Shown here one piece after another: positions 22,708 to 23,190 of a stretch of 46,600 nucleotides of DNA. Numbering within the stretch: position 1 is the stretch's first letter; every line of letters starts with the position of its first letter. The notes beneath the pieces are model-generated. The model saw nothing but the letters and a program-made list of their open reading frames with translations, made no database searches and was not told the origin of the DNA. The position numbers and the translations under genes were made by a program. The stretch covers positions 1-46,600 of the forward strand of contig NZNM01000150.1 of NCBI GenBank assembly GCA_002694885.1. Reading direction: 5' to 3'. Source of the stretch: Opitutaceae bacterium (GTDB lineage Bacteria > Verrucomicrobiota > Verrucomicrobiia > Opitutales > Opitutaceae).

Positions 22708-22784
22708 TGCAGGGTGGAGCAGTCTGGTAGCTCGTCAGGCTCATAACCTGAAGGTCCTCGGTTCAAATCCGAGCCCTGCACCCA
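22708..22784 (+). tRNA. tRNA-Met (anticodon CAU), initiator type, CCA encoded
   Basis: 77 nt. Acceptor TGCAGGG/CCCTGCA, anticodon loop CTCATAA with stem TCAGG/CCTGA, T-arm CTCGG-TTCAAAT-CCGAG, then CCCA. The A11-U24 pair in the D-stem and the GGAGCAG..GGTAGCTCGTC body are initiator features. Two details differ from the E. coli initiator: position 1-72 is T-A rather than a C-A mismatch, and the three anticodon-stem pairs are AGG/CCT rather than GGG/CCC. Discriminator base C73 is also unusual. A stable hairpin follows (22787-22816). The 3' half is duplicated at 23083-23148, with a GIY-YIG gene remnant between the copies. Confidence 0.95.
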
Positions 22785-22816
22785 ATGGAGGCTCAAGGTA
22801 TAAGTCCTTGGGCCTC
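22735..22816 (+). repeat. Direct repeat copy 1: tRNA-Met 3' half plus hairpin
   Basis: Runs from the anticodon arm (TCAGGCTCATAA, 22735-22746) to the end of the hairpin GGAGGCTCAAGG..CCTTGGGCCTCC. Positions 22755-22792 are identical to 23111-23148 except for one base (A22765 against T23121, in the T-loop). The following stretch, CTATACCCCAACT, is also similar to the end of copy 2. Confidence 0.9.
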
Positions 22817-22836
22817 CGCCCTATACCCCAACTCGA

Positions 22837-23094
22837 ATGTACCAGGTCTACGTAATCCAGAACGTCCAGGGCAGATTCTATATTGGCATATCGGAAGACT
22901 TCAAAGCTCGCGCAGCTCAACAAAACGCGGGCGTTACCAAATGGACCAAAGGCAAAGGGCCCTAGACCCTTAGATGGACGAGCAAAGCAATGTCCATCAC
23001 TGACGCTAGAAGGCTGGAAACCCTGCTCAAACGGCAGAAAGGCGGTCAAGGATTCTACAACCTTACGGGTTTGGAACGTGAATCAGGCTCATAA
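22837..23094 (+). pseudogene. GIY-YIG endonuclease gene with in-frame stop, nested between tRNA-Met half copies
   Basis: An 85-codon frame starting MYQVYVIQNVQGRFYIGISE, which carries the GIY-YIG motif (VYVIQN...FYIGIS) and the conserved Arg of FKARAAQQN. The C-terminal part, LETLLKRQKGGQGFYNLTGL, is typical of small GIY-YIG proteins. A TAG at 22963-22965 (codon 43) interrupts it within KGKGP-stop-TLRWTSKA, where relatives as I recall have Trp, so a TGG to TAG change is likely. The last codons (ESGS, stop) are formed by the repeated tRNA sequence itself. One nonsense change means recent inactivation, or a read-through product, though there is no sign of suppression. GIY-YIG nucleases are often mobile (homing) enzymes. 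Confidence 0.85.
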
Positions 23095-23190
23095 TCCCGC
23101 AATTGCGGGATCCTCGGTTCTAATCCGAGCCCTGCACCCAATGGAGGCCCATTAGCGAAAGCTGGTGGGCCTCGTCCTTACCCCCAACCT
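23083..23190 (+). repeat. Direct repeat copy 2: displaced tRNA-Met 3' half plus hairpin
   Basis: Starts with the anticodon-loop sequence TCAGGCTCATAA (23083-23094), then a perfect 16-bp palindrome TCCCGCAATTGCGGGA (23095-23110) in place of CCTGAAGG, then 38 nt nearly identical to copy 1, then a diverged but still paired hairpin (GAGGCCCA..TGGGCCTC) and a similar C-rich tail (TACCCCCAACC). It has no 5' acceptor half, so it cannot be a tRNA. The copies are 356 bp apart. Confidence 0.9.

Follow-up and report, generated by a model that had tools for sequence, protein, structure and literature searches.

The locus analysed here raises the question of how a GIY-YIG nuclease gene came to lie between an intact tRNA gene and a second copy of the 3' half of that tRNA. 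The window, i.e. the whole stretch of 46,600 nucleotides under study, carries an intact initiator-type tRNA-fMet (CAT) at 22708..22784 (ARAGORN; Rfam RF00005, 64.3 bits), on the forward strand like all window features below. Its 3' half, from the variable loop to the CCA (22755..22784, copy 1), is present again as a direct repeat at 23111..23140 (copy 2) with one difference. An earlier note, made from the sequence alone, had reported 38 nt with one difference (22755-22792 and 23111-23148), which we confirm; extended to 41 nt (22755-22795 and 23111-23151), the repeat is 95% identical at a spacing of 356, far above chance expectation within 1.4 kb. The 12-nt sequence TCAGGCTCATAA, which constitutes the 5' strand and loop of the tRNA-fMet anticodon arm, does recur at 22735 and 23083, as the note had stated. 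The hairpins that it saw after each copy are terminator-like: the first (22787..22818, GGAGGCTCAAGG...CCTTGGGCCTCC, by sequence reading) belongs to the inserted unit and is missing at empty sites, while the second (23144..23173) is the native one, found directly after the tRNA in empty sites (L058, L059, L060 and L063). The repeat and the empty sites delimit an inserted unit of 356 bp (22755..23110), composed in order of the tRNA-fMet 3'-half copy, the terminator-like hairpin, the GIY-YIG gene, TCAGGCTCATAA and a palindrome.

Between the second TCAGGCTCATAA (23083..23094), a segment that precedes the hairpin in other fMet units too, and copy 2 lies the perfect 16-nt palindrome TCCCGCAATTGCGGGA (23095..23110), which is conserved in the family. 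Copy 2 is more than a simple displaced 3' half because this palindrome stands where the tRNA has CCTGAAGG, the 3' strand of the anticodon arm together with the variable loop. Copy 2 is thus a tRNA fragment that has a palindrome instead of one strand of the anticodon arm and the variable loop. The earlier note had described an old 3' half pushed downstream; copy 2 does have the native flank, but the palindrome had been missed, and displaced copies also keep 5' tRNA pieces. The window has a single match to TCCCGN{3,12}CGGGA, a number that chance alone could produce: the palindrome is notable for its position and recurrence, not for its frequency.

The gene within the unit (22837..23094) starts at ATG 22837 and matches Pfam PF01541 (E 1.7e-8). 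Its frame closes at TAA 23092-23094, inside TCAGGCTCATAA, so the single ORF of the unit indeed ends in repeat sequence. An in-frame TAG at codon 43 (22963-22965) interrupts it and, judging from this stop, the window copy is dead, as had been proposed. Its protein is 69-71% identical to that of an intact copy at the same site in genome G007, and it is the single gene of the tRNA-linked GIY family found in the window genome. Proteins of the family are 82-85 aa long and consist of a single domain; among 25 members, Y15, G17, R25 and E61 are invariant and Y5 nearly so, and the catalytic Tyr, Arg and Glu of the superfamily are present. The nearest solved structures by sequence are UPF0213 (1zg2, E 1.5e-15) and SLX1 (8e-6), and to our knowledge neither of these GIY-YIG proteins is linked to tRNA genes. 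No NCBIfam model scored at or above its cut-off with the protein. A search of 50,697 phage records gave weak matches only, none spanning 80% of the query, and no relative was found in viral contigs with an eMet-type query. The 356-bp unit contains no integrase gene, the GIY-YIG ORF being its sole gene, and no HUH transposase gene, this ORF matching only GIY-YIG and, weakly, T5orf172 (Pfam). The tRNA is uninterrupted, and among the Rfam matches only tRNA reaches its gathering score, which does not correspond to a group I intron.

Loci with and without the unit were compared in the same genus. At the fMet locus, which has rpsB upstream, G002, G004, G009 and G010 have just one tRNA-fMet, and immediately after it come CCCATCGAGGCCCATTAGCG and the remainder of a terminator-like hairpin. 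This flank is that of copy 2 in the window, and G007 has a diverged form of it; empty sites ending in the flank of copy 2 had been predicted. In G007 the unit at this site is intact, and different terminators stand behind its two copies, only the second of them native-like. At the eMet locus, the unit was found in G002, G005, G007 and G010 and a vacant site in G004, and the window genome has a unit lacking the GIY-YIG gene; L203 is an empty eMet site. The fMet loci of G005 and G008 and the eMet locus of G008, which have N runs inside the tRNA, were left out of these calls. The N runs, each an assembly gap or a withheld stretch, start and stop inside the tRNA genes exactly at these sites (L064 in G005, L066 and L214 in G008), and in G008 sequence overlaps between their edges. 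Occupied and unoccupied alleles of one site, as expected for homing, are thus found at tRNA-fMet in the genus, at eMet and at tRNA-Ala in Maribacter. Together with the content of the unit, the empty sites support the proposal of a one-gene, integrase-free unit that uses a tRNA 3' end and leaves the tRNA whole. Filled and empty sites can also arise through loss. Between the window genome (G000) and G007, synonymous sites have reached saturation in the GIY gene (0.82) as well as in the neighbouring rpsB (0.78; frames taken stop to stop, three comparisons), so at the window site loss is as possible as gain and the direction may be either.

Homologues were gathered by protein alone and then inspected for tRNAs, whose isotypes were called with ARAGORN. 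A same-strand tRNA lies at most 350 nt upstream in 59 of the 79 best-scoring GIY matches with enough flank, and an antisense one in 1/79. About 50 further loci show the anatomy of the window unit, the downstream copy being the 3' half of the same upstream tRNA, mostly over 27-28 of 28 nt. The targets are initiator and elongator tRNA-Met, Asn, Arg-CCT, Arg-TCG, Lys, Ala, Pro and Val; the note had suggested a search for this subfamily beside other tRNAs with duplicated 3' halves. The hosts belong to Verrucomicrobiota, Bacteroidota and other phyla; they include isolates, going by record titles cultured members of Pontibacter, Parapedobacter, Mucilaginibacter, Maribacter and Pseudochryseolinea, as well as MAGs of Chlorobiota and Saprospiraceae. 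Fifteen non-Verrucomicrobial genomes contain 1 to 17 GIY-profile matches each, with tRNA linkage seen for part of them. The Verrucomicrobial genomes used are mostly fragmented assemblies, many of them MAGs, and locus counts are not counts of independent events. Units form tandem arrays at L007 (three units of 319 bp), L129 and L133. Beyond the one-gene unit described in the note, the family includes such arrays as well as units without the GIY gene. Generic GIY-YIG genes near tRNA-Ser (L014, L024) and tRNA-Ala (L020), which have no duplication and fall outside the linked clades, were excluded. A pattern search of the genus for dispersed hairpin-tRNA copies found them only at the tRNA-Met loci of G002 and G009; as far as this one search shows, the genus has no dispersed repeat family of that pattern.

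The design of the palindrome was analysed at 50 loci inspected in detail. In eMet, Arg, Lys, Ala, Pro and Val units it replaces the anticodon arm entirely (tRNA nt 27/28 to 43/45), in fMet units it takes the place of nt 38/39-47 and in most Asn units that of nt 24-33. Stems with 6 or more base pairs lie beside the copied 3' half in 49/52 units with a GIY gene and in about 25/27 GIY-less units (a count leaving out one listed row, itself a tRNA), compared with 273 of 2980 random positions (about 9%). The stem finder takes perfect stems only, and a 100% complementarity of the arms is thus given by construction; the informative evidence is the rate relative to random positions and the fact that differing arms are complementary. 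Seven outer arm pairs were found: CCCCGA/TCGGGG, TCCCGA/TCGGGA, TCCCGC/GCGGGA, TCCGGC/GCCGGA, TGGCGC/GCGCCA, TTCACG/CGTGAA and ACCTGC/GCAGGT. All are complementary and every stem position varies with pairing kept, while arms redealt at random have a mean complementarity of 57%. In the GIY-less Maribacter units, where the spacers are mostly 40-75% identical, the hairpin is kept at 16-18 of 18 positions, with changes in its middle.

These observations bear on a first alternative, according to which a tandem duplication of the tRNA came first; a GIY-YIG gene would have taken advantage of the spare copy, and this copy would have decayed until its 5' half was gone. Such a history would account for the 5' tRNA pieces of about 9-23 nt that are kept in displaced copies, and for the pseudo-tRNAs of G002 and G009, which combine a full 5' half with the hairpin. 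Plain decay, however, cannot yield a palindrome in the anticodon arm at many isotypes and in several phyla, nor does it agree with the different terminators of the G007 copies, only one of them native. We consider this history unlikely. Neither outcome that the note had named as refuting its own proposal, as worded there, was found: the duplicated end is present in relatives, and copy 2 is something other than a tandem tRNA that has simply decayed.

A second alternative takes the palindrome as the end of a transposing unit. REP/RAYT and IS200/IS605 systems have palindromes as recognised ends, non-autonomous palindromic units and HUH tyrosine nucleases. By the same logic, the GIY-YIG protein would be an end-recognising nuclease, and the tRNA arm would have been chosen because it is itself a hairpin. 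The motif TCCCG/CCCCG...CGGGA/CGGGG is indeed found across isotypes and phyla, other arm pairs are complementary, GIY-less units keep the palindrome and some displaced copies have palindromes in the T-loop as well. The tRNA-linked units differ from these systems by a nuclease of the GIY-YIG rather than the HUH type and by staying at tRNA genes; moreover, the unit holds no known strand-transfer enzyme, and in the one pattern search of the genus the copies remained at the tRNA instead of being dispersed. Transposition through hairpin ends is therefore doubtful in our opinion, though worth keeping in view.

Several loci depart from the common design. The displaced copies of L037 and L038 have a second palindrome, in the T-loop (e.g. 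TTGG-TCCCGCGACCGCGGGA-TCCAA). L205, the GIY-less unit of the window genome (G000 C57, eMet tRNA 14111-14186), reads TTAGAGCAG, CCCCGGCCAGCCGGGG, TTGGTCGTGG and then an enlarged T-loop region; this region resembles that in the displaced copies of G002, G005 and G010, and L205 is probably a deletion derivative. In G106 (L054), several Asp-like tRNA repeats, called tRNA-Ile once, surround the GIY gene, with TCCCGATACTTCGGGA replacing the anticodon arm. At the tRNA-Pro of Pseudochryseolinea flava (L092), a GIY unit follows a tandem series of GIY-less units, each about 120-140 bp long; their palindrome, TGGCGCGCTTCGCGCCA, is a different one. The eMet locus of G009 (L204 / L048) holds a full-length pseudo-tRNA with a hairpin anticodon arm, called tRNA-Arg, whose acceptor stem is unlike that of tRNA-Met yet pairs throughout (TCGCCC/GGGCGA), a hint that structure is under selection.

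This last pseudo-tRNA and the compensatory changes in the palindrome arms are what would be expected if the displaced copy and hairpin formed a tRNA-like RNA, serving as a processing signal, a decoy or a regulator of the nuclease mRNA, and were under selection as RNA and not as a site in DNA. In most displaced copies, however, the 5' acceptor strand is absent and a tRNA fold cannot close; the empty sites and the isotype-bound nuclease lineages would also be left unexplained. A function of this kind seems to us quite improbable.

The association between nuclease and tRNA was examined on a tree of 130 GIY proteins (83 columns), in which many forks are open. The tRNA isotype changes 39 times on this tree, against 75.8 after shuffling (0/200; rows without a called tRNA treated as one label). 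Clades with high SH-aLRT values group the fMet (96), eMet (97, with Arg-CCT and Lys nested), Asn (93) and Pro (95) nucleases. Judging from this tree, a nuclease lineage stays with one tRNA and seldom switches, which is the behaviour expected of a target-specific nuclease. Most intact pairs have dN/dS values of about 0.07-0.3, and up to 0.44, while L035 and L041, which have a common stop in the YIG motif, reach 0.80; stops interrupt the domain in 8 of 112 GIY copies. The substitution patterns point to purifying selection on the proteins followed by decay. Of the invasion and decay expected of homing genes, the stops and the dN/dS of 0.80 represent the decay.

The origin of the 3' half was addressed with 30 tRNA-Ala(GGC) loci from the genus of Maribacter litoralis (L220-L249). 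In the filled locus L220, GGCTTCAAGAGTTTTTGACTTTTGAAGCTTTTTTCATTTGCACGCAA comes after the last copy; in L235 the same sequence comes after a lone tRNA. The 11 tRNAs that encode CCA are all devoid of the unit, and the units (7 loci) and clear remnants (2 loci, L227 and L239) are all among the 19 tRNAs without encoded CCA (units 7/19 versus 0/11; Fisher about 0.025 one-sided, calculated by hand and ignoring kinship). This pattern suggests that the unit supplies the tRNA 3' end, and favours a 3' half that would travel with the element over target duplication. Arrays at these tRNA-Ala genes contain as many as three short GIY-less units. At the Maribacter tRNA-Ala sites of G995, G990 and G986, the 3' end of the tRNA is found again at a distance of about 6-10 kb, which would be expected of larger islands at this tRNA. 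A duplicated tRNA 3' end is the classic footprint of integrase-type insertion, and such distant copies are in keeping with it; the repeat would represent attL/attR and the GIY-YIG gene leftover cargo. Against it speak the small size of the units (about 300-370 bp), which contain no further gene, the recurrence of one nuclease family at many isotypes and the palindrome in the right copy. For the window it is very improbable, and for the family it is ruled out by the compact, integrase-free anatomy.

We thus favour, with a probability of roughly 0.6, the reading that the window unit belongs, as a dead copy, to a widespread family of tiny tRNA-homing GIY-YIG elements. A unit combines a tRNA 3' half with, in most cases, a terminator, and with a single-domain GIY-YIG gene, a short tRNA-derived segment that provides the stop codon in many units, and the palindrome standing for the anticodon arm. 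On entering a tRNA gene it would rebuild an intact tRNA and leave the old 3' half downstream, behind the palindrome; with the 3' half contained in the unit or regenerated by it, the host tRNA would stay intact. We infer that the nuclease may break an empty tRNA gene at the anticodon-arm region, or the palindrome, and that recombination via the 3' halves and the 5' flank may then copy the unit in. The palindrome would be a cis-acting site, the hairpin or cruciform being cut by the UPF0213/SLX1-like nuclease; it would also strip tRNA sequence from the displaced copy. A role as recognised site appears more likely than one as target-loss device because GIY-less units keep the palindrome and because the nearest structures are UPF0213 and the structure-specific SLX1. 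Tandem arrays could result from recombination between 3' halves. The family has autonomous and non-autonomous (GIY-less) units, and the latter may be plain deletion derivatives. Two points argue against plain homing: the presumed target is still present in the intact tRNA once a site is filled, and a single-domain protein of 82-85 aa leaves little room for recognition of a long site.

On the best reading, the units resemble most the SegB nuclease of T-even phages and endonuclease insertions of fungal mitochondria. SegB is a GIY-YIG homing endonuclease whose cuts fall within tRNA genes; it causes tRNA-Tyr and segB to be amplified together in tandem, with microhomology between the 5' end of the tRNA and the 3' end of segB (PMC13096335). 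The free-standing GIY-YIG genes of T-even phages thus share with our units a nuclease gene beside tRNA genes and tandem tRNA-nuclease segments. They are phage genes, for which a displaced tRNA copy or a palindrome is not known to us; the units studied here are found in bacterial chromosomes, with isotype-bound nuclease lineages and short non-autonomous forms. Fungal mitochondrial mORFs (Allomyces atp6; Glomus atp6, atp9, cox2 and nad3) bring a new end for the gene with them when they insert, and the native end comes to lie downstream; one case is of the GIY-YIG type (PMC3630166). The likeness lies in an endonuclease insertion with a replacement gene end. The mORFs, however, concern protein genes, bring foreign ends and have no palindrome, while in the tRNA units the two ends are near identical and it is the displaced copy that has the native flank. 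Phages, ICEs and islands that depend on an integrase also duplicate the tRNA 3' end and keep the tRNA whole; our units differ from them by lacking an integrase, by having one small gene or none and by the palindrome in the displaced copy. UPF0213 and SLX1 are related to the family as the nearest solved structures.

In the open-access literature we found no description of a bacterial tRNA-linked GIY-YIG family with palindromes, and these units look like an undescribed family of selfish elements. We propose tentatively, as a possibility short of even odds, that they represent a categorically new kind of bacterial mobile element: a cis-acting tRNA mimic with a palindrome for an anticodon arm, cut in hairpin or cruciform form by a minimal GIY-YIG nuclease, with the tRNA as target homology and with autonomous and SINE/REP-like non-autonomous units in arrays beside tRNA genes, in several phyla. 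On the reading favoured above, very small selfish units live at tRNA genes without an integrase, the host tRNA being kept by its rebuilt 3' half. This would link tRNA-targeting phage GIY-YIG nucleases, mitochondrial insertions that replace gene ends and palindromic repeats, which have so far been studied apart. It would also account for annotation oddities such as GIY-YIG frames ending in tRNA sequence, hairpin pseudo-tRNAs and the loss of encoded CCA. The presence of the units in cultured bacteria makes their mechanism testable now.
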